Of a DNA stretch of 52,299 bases, positions 5,007 through 41,164 are shown piece after piece (positions within the stretch are counted from its first letter, which is position 1; every line of letters begins with the position of its first letter). The notes beneath the pieces are model-generated. The model was not told the DNA's origin and did no database searches. It was given only the letters and a program-made list of their open reading frames with translations. Location: the NCBI GenBank assembly GCA_945883625.1, contig CAMCXW010000012.1:1-52299 (forward strand), given 5' to 3'. Source of the DNA: Spirosoma fluviale (GTDB lineage: Bacteria > Bacteroidota > Bacteroidia > Cytophagales > Spirosomataceae). Position numbers and translations under genes: made by a program.

Positions 5007-5543
5007 ATGACTCGCAAGCTGATTTTATCAAGCCCATTATTGGAGATAACCATATCCAGGTTATGCCAAGAGCTCATTGAGAATCAAATCAAAGATGTTG
5101 AAACCGTTATTTTAGGTCTACAACCACGCGGAATCTATTTCGCAGAACGCATCGCTGCTGAACTTGGAAAGCAATTAAATATACCGCATAACGTGGGTAG
5201 ACTAGACGCAACCTTCTACCGCGACGACTACCGTAGACGCGATACCATCGCCCCTAATTCAACGGACATTTCCTTCTTGATTGAAAATAAACGCGTCATT
5301 TTAGTGGATGACGTACTGGCGACTGGCCGTATGGTTCGTGCGGCACTCGATGCGATGAATTCATTCGGTAGACCCGCAAAAGTTGAACTTTGCGTACTAA
5401 TTGACCGTATTTACAACCGAGACCTGCCCATTAATGCAGACTATGTAGGGAAAGCGGTGAACACACTGCCTACGGAAAAAGTACTTGTGGAATGGCAAGA
5501 ACAAGGCCATGAAGCAGATAAAATTTGGTTAATCACCCAATAA
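5007..5543 (+). CDS. pyrR: PyrR-type phosphoribosyltransferase (pyrimidine regulator / uracil phosphoribosyltransferase)
   Basis: The type I phosphoribosyltransferase fold is shown by the PRPP-binding loop RVILVDDVLATGRMVRAALD (about 96-115) and by the N-terminal ILGLQPRGIYFAERIA (35-50). The 178-residue length and the sequence place it with PyrR, which makes UMP from uracil and in Firmicutes binds pyr mRNA. It lies 4 bp upstream of pyrB, the classic pyr-operon position. Whether it regulates RNA in this phylum is not known; the very short leader predicted here leaves no room for an attenuator before its own gene. The ATG at 5007 is preferred over a GTG at 5001 inside the promoter. Confidence 0.88.
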   Translation: MTRKLILSSPLLEITISRLCQELIENQIKDVETVILGLQPRGIYFAERIAAELGKQLNIPHNVGRLDATFYRDDYRRRDTIAPNSTDISFLIENKRVILVDDVLATGRMVRAALDAMNSFGRPAKVELCVLIDRIYNRDLPINADYVGKAVNTLPTEKVLVEWQEQGHEADKIWLITQ

Positions 5544-10341: not shown

Positions 10342-10913
10342 TAATCCAATTTACGCTCGTCTATTTCACGCTCCAACTCCGCATACCATTTGGTACCGAA
10401 TTTACGAATCAACGGATCCTTTAAGAATTTATACACAGGTACGCCCAACTCTTTTCCATGCGAGCATGCATCCGAACAAATTGTCCATCGCTCATAATTA
10501 ATCGCTTGATATTCAGCTAATTTTTGGATTCGAATCGGATATAAATGGCAGGAAATTGGCTTGCGAAAATCAGTTTTACCAGCAAAATAAGCTTGCTCGA
10601 TGCCACATTTCAAATAACCCTTTTGGTCATAAACGGCATACACACATTCACGACCTTTGATGATTGGCGTAGAAAAATCACCATCGTCTTCCCGAATGTA
10701 GGTGCCTTGTTTTTCGATTTCGGCGATCCCGTCTGCCGACAAAAATGGCCGAATTTCATCTTGAATGCGATCGATGATCGCTAATTCTTCTTGCTCCAAA
10801 GGCGCGCCCAAATCCCCTTCTACGCAGCATGCACCCTTACATTTTGTTAAATCACACACAAAATACTCGTCGGCAATATCCTCGCTAATTACCGTATCGT
10901 CAATTAAAATCAT
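10341..10913 (-). CDS. DUF3109 family cysteine-rich protein
   Basis: The start at 10913 gives 190 residues beginning MILIDDTVISEDI, the usual DUF3109 N-terminus. An upstream frame extending to 11105 runs into the promoter and start of the divergent lytic transglycosylase and is not credible. The Cys-rich motif FVCDLTKCKGACCVEGD (about 19-35) plus later CVYAVY, CGIEQAYF, CHLYPIR and CSDACSHG suggest metal or Fe-S binding of the YkgJ/zinc-chelating type. The biochemical role is unknown. It is the upstream partner of the ATL gene. Confidence 0.85.
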   Translation of the reverse strand: MILIDDTVISEDIADEYFVCDLTKCKGACCVEGDLGAPLEQEELAIIDRIQDEIRPFLSADGIAEIEKQGTYIREDDGDFSTPIIKGRECVYAVYDQKGYLKCGIEQAYFAGKTDFRKPISCHLYPIRIQKLAEYQAINYERWTICSDACSHGKELGVPVYKFLKDPLIRKFGTKWYAELEREIDERKLD

Positions 10914-11009
10914 TTCGTTTGGGCTAAAAACCAAAGGTAAAGATAATCCGCAGGATTGCCACAAAAAGCAATAATTCCCCAAAGCATCCGTTAAATCAGT
11001 TAAAATTGA

Positions 11010-37357: not shown

Positions 37358-37924
37358 ATGAAAAAAGTAAGCCTTATTTTAGCCGCTCTAGTGATGAGCA
37401 TTTCTTCTTTTGCAGCACCAAAACCTGTAAAAGTTAACACAGCAACTAGCTCAATCGCTTGGTATGCAGAAAAAGTAACTGGTAAGCACAACGGAACTGT
37501 AGCAATATCTGCAGGAGCTTTGAACGTGGACGGAAACAAATTAGTGGGAGGTAATTTCACCATTGATTTAAAAACAATCAAAGCATTGGATATCACAGAT
37601 CCGGCGTACAACCAAAAGTTTATCGGCCACATCTCTTCAGGAGACTTTTTTGAGGTTGAAAAATTCCCAACAGCTAATTTTGTGATCACAAAAATCGCTG
37701 CAAACCAAATTACAGGTAACTTGACAATCAAGGGCATTACCAAATCTGTTTCATTCCCAGCTGAAATCTCAGTAAAAGGAGGAAAAGTGGCTGCCAAGGC
37801 TTCAATTACAATTGACCGTACAGATTACAACATTCAATACGGTTCAAAGAAATTCTTTGAATCAATTGGAGACAAGGCTATCATGGATGACTTTAAGTTA
37901 GTCGTTTCATTGGTTAGCGAATAA
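37358..37924 (+). CDS. YceI family periplasmic protein
   Basis: 188 residues with a signal peptide (MKKVSLILAALVMSISSFA, cleavage before AP) and the lipocalin-like YceI domain: STASSIAWYAEKVTGKHNG-type start, GGNFTIDLKTIKALDI, the GHISSGDFFEVEKFP signature, and FGNLTIKGITKSV-type strand. Family members bind polyisoprenoids or similar amphiphiles; some respond to stress. It lies in an operon with marR and is closed by a strong terminator. Confidence 0.92.
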   Translation: MKKVSLILAALVMSISSFAAPKPVKVNTATSSIAWYAEKVTGKHNGTVAISAGALNVDGNKLVGGNFTIDLKTIKALDITDPAYNQKFIGHISSGDFFEVEKFPTANFVITKIAANQITGNLTIKGITKSVSFPAEISVKGGKVAAKASITIDRTDYNIQYGSKKFFESIGDKAIMDDFKLVVSLVSE

Positions 37925-37939
37925 ATTAATCCGCTTAAG

Positions 37940-37973
37940 AGCCGAGGTGTAAAATTTACACCTCGGCTTTTTT
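37940..37973 (+). terminator. Intrinsic terminator after yceI
   Basis: AGCCGAGGTGTAAA pairs with TTTACACCTCGGCT, followed by TTTTT. This strong hairpin separates marR-yceI from the nitroreductase. Confidence 0.9.
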
Positions 37974-37995
37974 ATAGTTAAACAAAATAATAAAG

Positions 37996-38622
37996 ATGTC
38001 TATAATTAATGATTTAGCTTGGCGTTATGCGGCAAAGCGCATGAATGGCAACAAGGTACCAACCGCTAAAATTGAAGACCTGTTAGAAGCAATCCGCTTG
38101 TCTGCCTCAGGATTTGGCCTACAGCCATATCAGATTTTTGTGATTGAAAATCCAGAATTACGTGCACAAATTCAACCCATTGCATTTGGCCAACCGCAGG
38201 TTACGGAATCTTCGCATTTACTTGTATTTGCCGCATGGAATGAAATAACAGAAGAAAAAATTGATTCATTTATACAATTGGTTTCTGAAACACGTAACGT
38301 ACCTGTCGCTAATTTAGGTGATTACCGCAAAGCAATTAGCGGAATGTTGAATCGTACACAAGAAGCTCAGGCAAACTGGGCGGCGCGCCAGGTGTATTTG
38401 GCCATGGGAACAGCACTCGCTGCCGCAGCCCATTTTAAAATTGATACAACACCTATGGAAGGATTTATGCCTGCCAAATTGGATGAATTGCTCGATTTGT
38501 CGGCGAAAGGCTTGCATTCAGTATTGATGTTAGCAGTAGGTGAGCGTGATGCAGCTGCAGATTACATGACCAATGCTGCGAAAGTTCGGTATTCAAAAGA
38601 CCAACTTTTCATTCGCATGTAA
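37996..38622 (+). CDS. Nitroreductase family NAD(P)H-dependent oxidoreductase
   Basis: An FMN flavoprotein of 208 residues in the NfsB/YfkO-like group. RYAAKRMNGN, LLEAIRLSASGFGLQPYQIF and QANWAARQVYLAMGTALAAAAHFKIDTTPMEGF match the family. The physiological substrate is unknown; quinones or nitro-compounds are typical. It follows marR-yceI in the same direction but after a terminator, so any shared regulation would need read-through. Confidence 0.88.
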   Translation: MSIINDLAWRYAAKRMNGNKVPTAKIEDLLEAIRLSASGFGLQPYQIFVIENPELRAQIQPIAFGQPQVTESSHLLVFAAWNEITEEKIDSFIQLVSETRNVPVANLGDYRKAISGMLNRTQEAQANWAARQVYLAMGTALAAAAHFKIDTTPMEGFMPAKLDELLDLSAKGLHSVLMLAVGERDAAADYMTNAAKVRYSKDQLFIRM

Positions 38623-38645
38623 TCGCACCAAATTCTTATTTAGTT

Positions 38646-38672
38646 AAAAGGCTCCTTCGGGAGCTTTTTTTT
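38646..38672 (+). terminator. Intrinsic terminator with UUCG tetraloop
   Basis: AAAAGGCTCC-TTCG-GGAGCTTTTT with one G-U pair and a following T-run. The stable cUUCGg-type loop makes it a confident terminator of the nitroreductase gene. Confidence 0.9.
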
Positions 38673-38798
38673 TATCAGTTTTTTAGTCTAAATCCGAATG
38701 AACTAGTCACGCTTCGAATATGACATGACTTAGTTGACCGCTACTTTTATAAAGCAATCGCGACGCAAATTAAACTCACATTTTAACCCTAAAAAACA
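38673..38798 (+). promoter_or_regulatory. Upstream region of the peptide cassette, promoter not resolved
   Basis: There is no exact TAnnTTTG here. The best -7 candidate is TACTTTTA (38742-38749). A loose inverted repeat ACTAGTCA / TGACTTAGT (about 38701-38733) lies just upstream and could be a regulator site. A weak or activator-dependent promoter is therefore possible. Confidence 0.3.
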
Positions 38799-38975
38799 AT
38801 GAGAAATGAATGGAATTCCTTGAACAATTTTACAGACTATGAACTTAGTTGGCACGAGCAAATGCACATAGAAGCCGGTGGTTTTTGGGAAATAGTGGGC
38901 ATTATCTGTGGGGTATTAACGGTAGTAGCCATTATTTACGTATTAGGTGGAGCCGCTGTATTATTAGCGCTTTAA
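38799..38975 (+). CDS. Double-glycine-leader peptide 1 (putative class IIb bacteriocin-like)
   Basis: A 58-codon gene. The N-terminal 28 residues form a polar leader ending MHIEAGG, a double-glycine cleavage site of the C39-peptidase/ABC exporter type. The 30-residue core starts FWEIVGIICGVL, is strongly hydrophobic, contains one Cys and a GxxxG motif (GIICG), and ends in GGAAVLLAL. It would form a membrane helix. A second peptide of identical length follows 27 bp downstream. Class IIb two-peptide bacteriocins share leader type, core size and GxxxG motifs; the sequence itself I do not recognise. No exporter is in the window. Coding status is supported by leader logic and codon use, not by homology. 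Confidence 0.72.
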   Translation: MRNEWNSLNNFTDYELSWHEQMHIEAGGFWEIVGIICGVLTVVAIIYVLGGAAVLLAL

Positions 38976-39002
38976 TATTAATTCACATTTAAAAAAAAGA
39001 TA

Positions 39003-39179
39003 ATGGAACTTGAAAAATTCAATCGATTTGCCTTGAGCGAATTGGAGATGCATGAAATCTCGGGTGGAAATTGGTGGTCTGACTTTAAGACTGGATTTAT
39101 GGACGGTTTTAATTGGGCAACCGGGGTCGTATTGGACGCAGTTAGCTTTGTTGACAAACTGCGATTAGCCACACGATAA
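39003..39179 (+). CDS. Double-glycine-leader peptide 2 (putative partner peptide)
   Basis: A 58-codon gene. The 22-residue leader MELEKFNRFALSELEMHEIS-GG fits the classical consensus (LSxxELxxIxGG) closely. The 36-residue core starts NWWSDFKTGFMDG, is amphipathic, Trp-rich and cationic at its C-terminus (DKLRLATR), and contains GxxxG (GFMDG). Compared with the very hydrophobic core of peptide 1 it looks like the complementary half of a two-peptide system. It is followed by the YbaB-like gene after 1 nt, so the cassette is one transcript. Antimicrobial, signalling and unmodified-toxin roles are all possible. Confidence 0.78.
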   Translation: MELEKFNRFALSELEMHEISGGNWWSDFKTGFMDGFNWATGVVLDAVSFVDKLRLATR

Positions 39180-39180
39180 A

Positions 39181-39441
39181 ATGAACCAGGACCCGTTACA
39201 TGTACTAAAGGCAAAAATCAATCGTAAAAAACAATTGATTTCTGAGATACATCAAAATGTAACCAAAACTATCATCATAACAATAAATGGGCATTTTGAA
39301 ATTACAAAACTGATTATTCAGCCAAACGTAGCACATAAAACAATTGAAGAGGAATTGCCATGCCTGATTTCGAATGGAATAAAATCCGTAAGTGAAAAGA
39401 TTAATCGGGTTTTGATGGAATTTCAAGCAGCCAACTCGTAA
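39181..39441 (+). CDS. YbaB/EbfC-like small protein in the peptide cassette
   Basis: 86 residues with an N-terminal helix (LHVLKAKINRKKQLISEI), then a beta-rich stretch (KTIIITINGHFEITKLIIQP) and a C-terminal helix (LISNGIKSVSEKINRVLMEF). The order and the TINGxxxITxLxI pattern resemble the nucleoid-associated YbaB/EbfC fold, though it is shorter and divergent, so the assignment is tentative. It starts 1 nt after peptide 2 and its stop lies in the loop of a hairpin. In bacteriocin operons this position is usually held by an immunity or accessory gene, but there is no membrane segment here. Confidence 0.65.
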   Translation: MNQDPLHVLKAKINRKKQLISEIHQNVTKTIIITINGHFEITKLIIQPNVAHKTIEEELPCLISNGIKSVSEKINRVLMEFQAANS

Positions 39442-39452
39442 GTTGGCTGCTT
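39425..39452. terminator. Bidirectional hairpin built from the ends of two convergent genes
   Basis: AAGCAGCCAACT and AGTTGGCTGCTT form a perfect 12-bp stem with loop CGTA. The YbaB-like stop codon (39439-39441) spans the loop and the first base of the 3' arm, and the Xre stop (39451-39453) overlaps the stem end. No long T-tract follows on either strand. Confidence 0.6.
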
Positions 39453-39642
39453 ACAATAAATCCCGAACATCAACCTGAAAATAGGTGGCAATCGCCAGCA
39501 ATCGTTCAACGCTCAATTTTGTTTTTCCTGACTCAAGCTTTGCATAGGTACTTTGCGTAATTTTTAAATTAAAGGCCACGGCTTCTTGTGAAATTCGGCG
39601 CTCCTCTCGTAAATTTTTCAGGTTAATCAGTAGCTTGGACAT
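39451..39642 (-). CDS. Xre-family helix-turn-helix regulator
   Basis: A 63-residue stand-alone HTH_3 protein, from the ATG at 39642: LKNLREERRISQEAVAFNLKITQSTYAKLESGKTKLSVERLLAIA covers the five helices, with the recognition helix at QSTYAKLESG. A longer frame from 39663 begins inside the promoter. It converges on the peptide cassette, sharing a terminator hairpin, and is a reasonable candidate regulator of it, though it could equally be independent. Confidence 0.88.
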   Translation of the reverse strand: MSKLLINLKNLREERRISQEAVAFNLKITQSTYAKLESGKTKLSVERLLAIATYFQVDVRDLL

Positions 39643-39660
39643 CTTCAGATTTGGTAAAAA

Positions 39661-39668
39661 CAAATCTA
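39661..39668 (-). promoter_or_regulatory. -7 promoter element of the Xre gene
   Basis: Exact TAGATTTG on the minus strand, 18 nt before the ATG. Confidence 0.55.
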
Positions 39669-39721
39669 CTTGAATCTAGCAGGCATTGAAGCTAAAAAAC
39701 TGATATTGAAAAACAGTAAAC

Positions 39722-41164
39722 TTATAACTTCAAAAATTCTTCCGATGAGATTACAGGTTCTAAACCCAATCGTGCTCCTTCGTGAATTAAGAGATCCCAT
39801 CCAGAGGCCAAATCGTTTCGAATTTGTCCTTCTAAGATAGCCTCGCGAATGATCACTTTAATTTGGCCAATCTCTTTTCCAGGACCTAAATCAAACACAT
39901 GCATGATGATTTCACCTGTGATGACGGGTTGAAAATTACGTAGGGAATCGCTGGCTTCTACCTCTTTTAGCTTTTCTTCTACCGTGTCAAAATTCCGCAA
40001 ATAGCGTTTGACTTTATCCCCATTTTTCGAGGTGATATCGGCCCTACACAAGGTCATAAGTGCCTCAAGCTCATCTCCTGCTTCAAACAATAAGCGGCGC
40101 AATGCGGAATCAGTAATTTCTTCTTTGGAGAGCGCAATCGGTCTTAAATGTAGGCGGACTAGTTTTTGCACCAACTTCATTTTCTCATTTAGAGGCAATT
40201 TAAGTCGCTTGAAAATTACAGGTACTTGGCGTGCACCTATTTCTTCATGTCCATGAAATGTCCACCCTTTTCCTTGTACGAATCTTTTGGTTTGCGGTTT
40301 CGCAATATCATGTAAAATTGCTGCCCAGCGCCAAAATAAATCATCTGTATTGACCGAAATATTATCCAACACCTGAAGAGTGTGGTAGAAATTATCTTTA
40401 TGTCCTTTGCCATCCTCCGTATCTACCCCCTTCAACTTCATAAACTCGGGGAAAATAATGGGTAAAATTCCACAAGCGTCCAACAGCAGAAAACCGTAGG
40501 AAGGTTTTTTACATAAAATAATTTTGTTTAATTCATCTGAAATACGCTCCATGGAGATAATCGACAAACGATCTTTCTCCTTTTGAAGTGCATCAAAAGT
40601 CTCAGGTAAAATATCAAAGCCCAATTGACTCGCAAACCGAATCGCACGCATCATCCGCAACGGATCATCCGAAAAGGTAATGCCCGGTGCCAAAGGGGTC
40701 CGAATACATTTAGCCTCAATGTCAGCTAAACCTCCAAAAGGGTCCAATAAATTGCCCCAATAAGCAGCATTTAATTGAACGGCTAGCGCATTAATCGTAA
40801 AATCTCTACGATTTTGATCATCCTCCAAGGTCCCTTCCATCACCAGAGGTTTCCGTGAATCGCGCTGATATGACTCCTTACGAGCACCCACAAATTCCAA
40901 ATCCCAATCGTCCACTTTAAGCATGGCCGTACCAAAATTCTTAAATATAGATACCGCATGATCTGGCAACTCAAATTCCCGTGCAACTTGCTCAGCAAGT
41001 TCAATGCCGGAACCAATACACACAATGTCGATATCTTTACAAGGCCGACCTAATAAATGGTCTCTCACATAACCCCCAACTACATATGCATCTATGTTCA
41101 AGCGATCTGCCGCTTGTCCAATTTTTTTAAATATACCTTGCTCTATGATGGCTAATCCCTGCAT
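39722..41164 (-). CDS. cca: CCA tRNA nucleotidyltransferase / poly(A) polymerase with HD domain
   Basis: A class II nucleotidyltransferase of 480 residues. The head has VVGGYVRDHLLGRPCKDIDIV (GG and DxD catalytic motif), RRDFTINALAV, and ISDDPLRMMRAIRFASQLGF. An HD domain follows (ILHDIAKPQTKR, HGHEEIGARQVP). It repairs or adds the 3' CCA of tRNAs; the tRNA-Glu here already encodes CCA. The HD-containing form is the typical Bacteroidota enzyme. tsaC lies 2 bp upstream in the same operon, pairing two tRNA-maturation genes. Confidence 0.93.
   Translation of the reverse strand: MQGLAIIEQGIFKKIGQAADRLNIDAYVVGGYVRDHLLGRPCKDIDIVCIGSGIELAEQVAREFELPDHAVSIFKNFGTAMLKVDDWDLEFVGARKESYQRDSRKPLVMEGTLEDDQNRRDFTINALAVQLNAAYWGNLLDPFGGLADIEAKCIRTPLAPGITFSDDPLRMMRAIRFASQLGFDILPETFDALQKEKDRLSIISMERISDELNKIILCKKPSYGFLLLDACGILPIIFPEFMKLKGVDTEDGKGHKDNFYHTLQVLDNISVNTDDLFWRWAAILHDIAKPQTKRFVQGKGWTFHGHEEIGARQVPVIFKRLKLPLNEKMKLVQKLVRLHLRPIALSKEEITDSALRRLLFEAGDELEALMTLCRADITSKNGDKVKRYLRNFDTVEEKLKEVEASDSLRNFQPVITGEIIMHVFDLGPGKEIGQIKVIIREAILEGQIRNDLASGWDLLIHEGARLGLEPVISSEEFLKL

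Follow-up and report, generated by a model that had tools for sequence, protein, structure and literature searches.

Two adjacent genes of 58 codons each, which lie on the forward strand of a 52,299-nucleotide stretch of DNA from the freshwater bacterium Spirosoma fluviale (contig CAMCXW010000012.1, positions 1 to 52,299; hereafter the window), encode small precursor peptides, P1 and P2, each with a leader ending in a double glycine (GG) and a core carrying a GxxxG motif. Together they probably constitute an exported two-peptide antibacterial system resembling the class IIb bacteriocins and the Cdz system, a reading to which we give a probability of about 0.6. The resemblance stops short of a class IIb assignment. 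The pair had been picked out in an earlier note, made from the letters of the window alone, which placed it in a Bacteroidota genome, and the recorded lineage agrees. Beyond that note, a YbaB-like gene directly behind the pair, a helix-turn-helix (HTH) gene and a larger cassette in relatives are described here.

The Two Precursor Genes

The two genes are as follows.

38799 to 38975, forward strand: P1, a hydrophobic precursor of 58 amino acids with a double-glycine leader (open reading frame (ORF), alignment, composition and pN/pS, the per-site ratio of replacement to synonymous changes)
39003 to 39179, forward strand: P2, an amphipathic, Trp-rich precursor of 58 amino acids with a double-glycine leader (ORF, alignment and pN/pS)

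Positions and lengths are exactly those of the earlier note, whose description of leaders ending in GG, cores of 30 and 36 residues and the motifs GIICG and GFMDG is also borne out. The P1 leader comprises 28 amino acids if it is cut after the GG at residues 27-28 (ending at 38882), which leaves a core of 30 amino acids that starts FWEIVGIICGVL, ends GGAAVLLAL and has a mean hydropathy of 2.37. The P2 leader comprises 22 amino acids (GG at residues 21-22, to 39068), and its core of 36 amino acids begins NWWSDFKTGFMDGF and contains three Trp. There is one GxxxG in each core, GIICG in P1 and GFMDG in P2, and a single cysteine in the P1 core with none in that of P2. Cores of class IIb peptides characteristically have a GxxxG or GxxxG-like motif (PMC6957408). 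The GC content of the cassette is ordinary.

A strict codon pattern for E-[hydrophobic]-x-x-I-x-G-G has six matches in the genome, among which P2 alone stands in the leader position of a small ORF; the P1 leader lies outside this pattern. The P1 cut region reads [E/D]-G-G-G-F-W in 13 of the 17 genomes that carry the pair (see below) and [E/D]-A-G-G-F-W in the other four, G000 (the window's own genome), G003, G006 and G043. In the usual leader register a hydrophobic residue stands at -4 from the cut. By this register, P1 of the 13 GGGFW carriers fits a cut after the second G, and in the four AGG genomes the predicted cut may fall after AG or AGG. The window's P1 core would thus be 31 or 30 residues long, so that the 30 residues claimed earlier hold for a cut after AGG and become 31 for one after AG.

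Conservation and Distribution of the Pair

All 38 genus genomes, G000 included, were examined with profiles built from ten of the 17 pairs. Each peptide was found in 17 of them, the identical 17 for both, leaving 21 non-carriers. P1 precedes P2 in every carrier, and both peptides retain GG and GxxxG in all 17, the window included. The earlier note had staked its proposal partly on conservation of the frames and the GG site in close relatives, and both are kept. Summed pN/pS values are 0.26 for the P1 leader, 0.22 for the P1 core, 0.20 for the P2 leader and 0.24 for the P2 core; that is, for equal numbers of sites, synonymous changes outnumber replacement changes four- to fivefold, as computed over 13 chosen, overlapping and non-independent genome pairs with some comparisons saturated. 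Raw replacement and synonymous counts are similar in three of the four leader and core parts, and individual short comparisons scatter, one P1 leader reaching 0.90. For G000 against G006 the P1 core gives S 17.0/24 and N 7.0/66 (synonymous and replacement, respectively), and the P2 core is saturated.

Outside the genus, the P2 profile matched 26 of 222 genomes of the family, namely the 17 carriers, two strongly (G057 and G188) and seven weakly, and the P1 profile matched 14 of 390 genomes sampled evenly from the order, namely the window, G188 strongly and twelve weakly. The weakly matched genomes, seven for P2 and twelve for P1 (E about 6e-6 to 1e-2), were excluded as pair carriers. G188 and G057, which represent two other genera, hold P1 and P2 adjacent plus an exporter.

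P1 and P2 are real genes. That they are chance ORFs, for which their small size alone speaks, is a reading of nearly negligible probability, because both are present in 17 of the 38 genus genomes and adjacent in two more genera, with low pN/pS and with fixed order and site. Searches in other directions gave little: 12 pattern stretches in viral contigs encoded no P1 relative, P2 found no match among phages and plasmids, and Rfam had none across 37900-40000. Among solved structures the best matches of the P2 profile, the PCAT1 substrate CtA (E 0.24) and another PCAT1 substrate (1.5), were not significant.

A C39 Exporter in the Same Genomes

The earlier note had looked to a C39-type ATP-binding cassette (ABC) exporter and an HlyD-like protein elsewhere in the genome, and both are present. 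The window genome (2.3 Mb, 88.8% complete) has a single C39 match, a protein of 721 amino acids with C39, ABC_membrane and ABC_tran domains, in which we take DCGAACL, HYVVIY and DP to contain the catalytic Cys, His and Asp. Its gene lies on contig 27, a contig other than that of the pair, immediately after an HlyD-family gene, with an rpoC-like gene nearby.

Within the genus C39 was found in 17 of 38 genomes: 15 of the 17 carriers and two of the 21 non-carriers (G020 and G039). Fisher's test on these raw counts gives p 1.2e-6, a value weakened by the relatedness of the genomes. The two carriers with no C39 match, G003 and G048, both show exporter-like pieces at contig ends. In a whole-exporter search covering G003, G048, G188 and G057, and not the 19 genus genomes that lack both pair and C39, the G003 piece had 76% identity over residues 269-720 and the G048 piece 54% over 591-713; the latter, though short, is probably the cassette exporter. 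Pair and exporter lie in one cluster in four of the 17 carriers. The C39/HlyD exporter presumably serves the pair. No HlyD gene was called beside C39 in G011, G022, G041 and G042, and in G046 the C39 ABC gene is split into overlapping frames of 431 and 317 amino acids (L092:6094-8249), by a frameshift or an assembly error.

The non-carrier G020 has an HlyD/C39 exporter of the same cluster, again next to an rpoC-like gene; it comes with three different GG-leader peptides, located on L097 as follows.

5250-5429, forward strand: GG peptide of G020
10597-10779, reverse strand: GG peptide of G020
10791-10979, reverse strand: GG peptide of G020

It is possible that in G020 peptides have been swapped around a retained exporter. 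Other kinds of GG peptides likewise adjoin an exporter of this cluster outside the genus, in G131, G224, G480 and G117. Diverse groups of small GG-leader ORFs were also seen in other Cytophagales, at L216:5312-9883 (G166, near a YbaB-like gene) and at L137:6746-9636 (G480, near a C39 gene).

Full and Reduced Cassettes

In G004, G016, G049 and G051 one stretch holds P1, P2, a CarbopepD_reg protein of about 600 amino acids (CarbopepD), a YbaB-like protein, HlyD and C39, in this order; G013 and G050 have the same full order across contig breaks. G018, G046 and G048 (across contigs) have P1-P2-CarbopepD-YbaB-like followed by an HlyD-like gene of 187 amino acids (184 in G048), and the exporter is sited elsewhere in G018 and G046. 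The 187-amino-acid HlyD-like protein is encoded at L030:1139-1702 and L087:9126-9689, the G018 copy having no Pfam match. At the site in the window genome, G006, G043, G011, G022, G041 and G042 there is P1-P2-YbaB-like only, with the exporter elsewhere, and in G003 only P1-P2, the YbaB-like gene being absent from the site. Outside the genus, G188 has P1-P2-CarbopepD-YbaB-like with the exporter about 40 kb away, and G057 has P1-P2, a YbaB-like ORF of 99 amino acids, CarbopepD, HlyD and C39.

These layouts bear on whether the window lineage holds a decaying remnant of a fuller cassette, with CarbopepD absent, the exporter elsewhere and AGG in P1. The reduced layout is shared by the window and seven other carriers; no CarbopepD protein was found elsewhere in G000, G006, G043 and G003, and G011, G022, G041 and G042 show only weak matches to it, over its first 120 residues. 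AGG at the P1 cut in four of 17 carriers points the same way. Decay sits badly, however, with frames, GG and GxxxG that are intact in all reduced-layout carriers, with the low replacement count between the P1 cores of G000 and G006, and with C39 in seven of the eight reduced-layout carriers, the remaining one, G003, having part of an exporter where its contig ends. We consider the remnant reading improbable.

A YbaB-Like Gene Behind the Pair

One base separates the P2 stop codon from the start of the next gene.

39181 to 39441, forward strand: divergent YbaB-like protein of 86 amino acids, a regular cassette member (profile matches, hhalign and Pfam)

As judged by profile matches, this YbaB-like gene recurs in GG-peptide cassettes of the family, an association newly recognised here. 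Its profile matched 16 of the 17 carriers (not G003) and none of 20 listed non-carriers of 21, G014 being the remaining one, and in the family it matched 27 of 222 genomes, 11 of them outside the genus. Among the latter, the matches in G131, G217 and G056 lie in GG-peptide/C39 cassettes and that in G188 lies beside the pair; the G217 cassette includes an outer membrane efflux protein. Around the YbaB-like gene of G166 there are GG-peptide ORFs, and the portion shown has no C39 gene. The YbaB-like ORF of G057 was read by eye, the profile having listed no G057. The matches in G181, G176, G232, G175, G136 and G116 were rejected as cassette members, as they lie outside GG-peptide cassettes and look like housekeeping YbaB.

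The assignment to the YbaB/EbfC family (PF02575) rests on profile comparison, in which this partner family of 86 amino acids aligns to housekeeping YbaB proteins. A 15-member genus profile compared by hhalign with four housekeeping YbaB proteins of the same bacterial family gave a probability of 94.6% (E 6.7e-8, 74 columns), and a hand-chosen ten-member set including the G166 and G057 proteins gave 96.8%. PF02575 was matched by all 15 cassette members (best 3.4e-5). The window copy differs from the housekeeping proteins in sitting in a peptide cassette and in falling below the Pfam cut-off: YbaB ranks first with E 0.035 and 14.7 bits, under the cut-off of 25.5 bits. Its predicted structure is helix-strand-strand-helix, at low confidence (mean predicted local distance difference test score 53.7).

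The HTH Gene, Upstream Elements and the Site

The remaining features of the locus and its flanks are as follows.

37996 to 38622, forward strand: left flank, a gene presumed from its sequence to be nitroreductase-like, outside the cassette (locus comparison)
38646 to 38669, forward strand: terminator-like hairpin that separates the upstream nitroreductase-like gene from the cassette
38742 to 38749, forward strand: TACTTTTA, possible -7 promoter element
38754 to 38766, forward strand: GCAATCGCGACGC, element downstream of the -7-like box, at most a candidate operator (upstream stretches compared)
39451 to 39663, reverse strand: convergent gene for a Cro/CI-type HTH protein of 70 amino acids, probable cassette regulator (Pfam HTH_3, E 4.1e-15)
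39722 to 41164, reverse strand: right flank, a gene presumed from its sequence to be CCA-adding/poly(A) polymerase-like, outside the cassette (locus comparison)

Fifteen of the 17 carriers have the HTH gene at the site; it may have been overlooked in G018 and G046, because the gene caller drops overlapping ORFs. The possible -7 element conforms to TAnnTTTA, which is found 56-65 bases before the P1 start in all 17 carriers and which we take to resemble the Bacteroidota -7 consensus. A scan for sigma-70 promoters found 2, against a mean of 3.8 in shuffles. Carrier upstream stretches contain CGCG in 14 of 17 and CTCGAG in four, one having both. The GCAATCGCGACGC-type element has a single match in the window, about the chance expectation, and a palindromic operator upstream of P1 was rejected since palindromy showed no excess over shuffles.

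In 16 of 17 carriers the nitroreductase-like gene precedes the pair; in G004 the contig ends first. Fifteen of the 21 non-carriers gave a locus around this gene, surveyed with flanks of 1.5 kb; the CCA-adding-like gene comes immediately next in 10 of the 15, and none of them has an HTH gene of the cassette cluster, 11 of the 15 showing the site in full. The other five loci have an ion-channel gene at the site (G010 and G040), a Gp49/HTH pair (G001) or a contig end (G047 and G017); with 1.5 kb flanks the right side of the site is out of view in G010 and G001. These alternative contents, ion-channel-like in G010 and G040 and a toxin-antitoxin-like pair in G001, are at L171:2821-3498, L177:2731 onward and L176:553-1190; the site is possibly an insertion hot spot. 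In G013 a PIN-domain-like ORF of 135 amino acids, which we take to be VapC-like, stands between the nitroreductase-like gene and P1 (L028:3535-3942).

Class IIb Likeness and Its Limits

Several class IIb features are present: two adjacent, different precursors with leaders in the same order, GxxxG in both cores, and a C39 ABC protein with HlyD, which lies on another contig in the window genome and is linked to the pair in four of 17 carriers. On these points the class IIb-like system proposed in the earlier note stands; membership in class IIb itself is at most a candidate assignment. The points that weigh against an antibacterial pair of this kind, or against its tie to the exporter, are the following.

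Class IIb cores are typically cationic. The cores here are near neutral, with a net charge of -1 for P1 and 0 for P2 and a range of -2 to +1 across all 17 pairs; the cationic character of P2 is confined to its tail. In the window layout the CarbopepD protein is missing and the exporter lies apart from the pair. The association of pair and exporter stems from few changes: on a tree of 30 nitroreductase proteins, with G003 and G048 scored exporter-positive, there are 4 per trait, and the two independent pairs of genomes, taken on supported branches, agree (sign test p 0.5); eight genomes are off the tree, among them the discordant G020 and G039.

The window peptides are under every curated NCBIfam cut-off, P1 having no class IIb match and P2 reaching 15.3 bits with lactGbeta_entB (cut-off 37), and it is in relatives that the curated models find weak matches, lactococcin G-alpha with P1 relatives (10/17, best 8.3e-5) and lactococcin G-beta with P2 relatives (11/17, best 1.1e-3). 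The model of the pheromone BlpC matches P1 relatives equally well (11/17, best 8.1e-5), so the weak class IIb matches may reflect the leader alone. Since BlpC also weakly matches P2 relatives (16/17, best 0.0058), in both cases probably via the leader, and since GG peptides exported by C39 proteins include signals (PMC7018657), P1 and P2 might be exported pheromones rather than toxins. Two co-conserved GxxxG cores, one of them a hydrophobic stretch of 30 residues, suit membranes, and no histidine kinase was noticed in the gene lists of the surveyed loci, in which no search aimed at kinases was made. We regard a signalling role as quite unlikely.

A hydropathy scan found no transmembrane immunity gene at the site; it was made without a transmembrane predictor and left the rest of the genome unsearched. 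With a 19-residue scan of the nine ORFs between the flanks, P1 itself scored highest (2.75). An ORF of 44 amino acids just upstream of the HTH gene (39666-39800, reverse strand) is moderately hydrophobic (1.85) and was rejected as an immunity gene, as it has no counterpart among 12 carriers examined (G022 has masked bases). Transmembrane immunity proteins are the rule for two-peptide bacteriocins (PMC6957408), and Cdz too has one (PMC5380434); bacteroidetocins inhibit their own producers, in which no immunity gene is obvious (PMC6671954).

The result of the site scan also suits a pair that acts on its own population, for example in stationary-phase autolysis, rather than as a weapon. The Naps of Neisseria are GG-motif peptides encoded on one island with a C39 peptidase and a regulator; they promote autolysis and show no antimicrobial activity that could be detected (PMC11798529). 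There are, however, three Naps, which are cationic, and a putative immunity protein resembling LagC is encoded on their island (PMC11798529), whereas the cores here are two and near neutral. A self-acting pair seems to us unlikely.

Comparison with Known Systems

The antibacterial two-peptide reading is best judged beside the systems it recalls. With class IIb (lactococcin G, lactococcin MN and carnobacteriocin XY; PMC6957408) the pair shares adjacent leader precursors, GxxxG cores and a transporter with an accessory protein. Class IIb belongs to Gram-positive bacteria; the pair here differs in its diderm Bacteroidota host, in cores that are close to neutral, in the negative outcome of the site scan for a transmembrane immunity gene and in a similarity to the curated models that is only weak. 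Its cassette also includes a YbaB-like gene, joined in relatives by one for a CarbopepD_reg protein. Cdz of Caulobacter crescentus (PMC5380434) is a Gram-negative two-peptide GxxxG system that uses type I secretion and is able to kill by contact, with leaders in Cdz-like proteins ending in G[G/A/S]. Cdz-like proteins have 60-151 amino acids, one or two glycine zippers and a polar C-terminus (PMC5380434); set against this description, P1 and P2 have 58 amino acids each and a single GxxxG per core, and P1 ends in a hydrophobic stretch. The bacteroidetocins of Bacteroidales (PMC6671954, PMC8546649) share the phylum, a GG leader, an ABC exporter with a double-glycine peptidase and the lack of an obvious immunity gene, but they are single peptides with at least two cysteines, leaders of 15-16 residues and, as partners, a transmembrane protein and mostly a thiol oxidoreductase; the pair differs in being two peptides, with a single Cys in P1 and no Cys in P2, and in its leaders of 28 and 22 amino acids. 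Naps share GG motifs, a Gram-negative host and C39 processing, and differ further in their FapF-like channel (PMC11798529).

GG-type precursors with C39 exporters have been described in Bacteroidales (PMC10352776), so the exporter principle is already known in the phylum, and a bulk report of class II bacteriocin potential covers Bacteroidota (PMC12648078). Among the listed matches of literature searches in open-licence papers, no title or abstract opening describes such a pair in Bacteroidota. Six open-licence papers mention both YbaB and bacteriocin, and they carry neither term in title or abstract.

A Proposed Mechanism

An outline of how the system would work is as follows. P1 and P2, whose genes are probably co-transcribed, would as precursors give rise to a single secreted product of two unmodified peptides. 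Their double-glycine leaders would dock on the C39 domain of the peptidase-containing ABC exporter, which would cut them, and the exporter with its HlyD partner and an outer-membrane channel would send the cores outside, where they may be released or kept on the cell surface as in Cdz. The hydrophobic P1 helix and the amphipathic P2 helix would then pair via their GxxxG faces in the membrane of a neighbour cell, probably a close relative, and damage it. The YbaB-like protein would work with the pair in the cytoplasm as its dedicated partner, in the simplest case by holding the hydrophobic precursors or by contributing to self-protection, and the HTH protein would control the cassette.

Implications

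Gram-positive bacteria have two-peptide GxxxG systems, and the Cdz type is known in Caulobacter and other proteobacteria. A pair in Bacteroidota raises several questions. In a diderm target, how do two helices get to the inner membrane? How does the producer survive without an evident immunity protein? What does a YbaB-like protein do in a peptide cassette? One tentative answer, which we hold possible yet doubtful, is that Cytophagales have a distinct family of GG-peptide export cassettes in which a divergent YbaB protein, drawn out of its housekeeping role, may have become a partner for peptide handling or self-protection, so that the pair in the window would be a weapon that uses YbaB instead of a transmembrane immunity protein.
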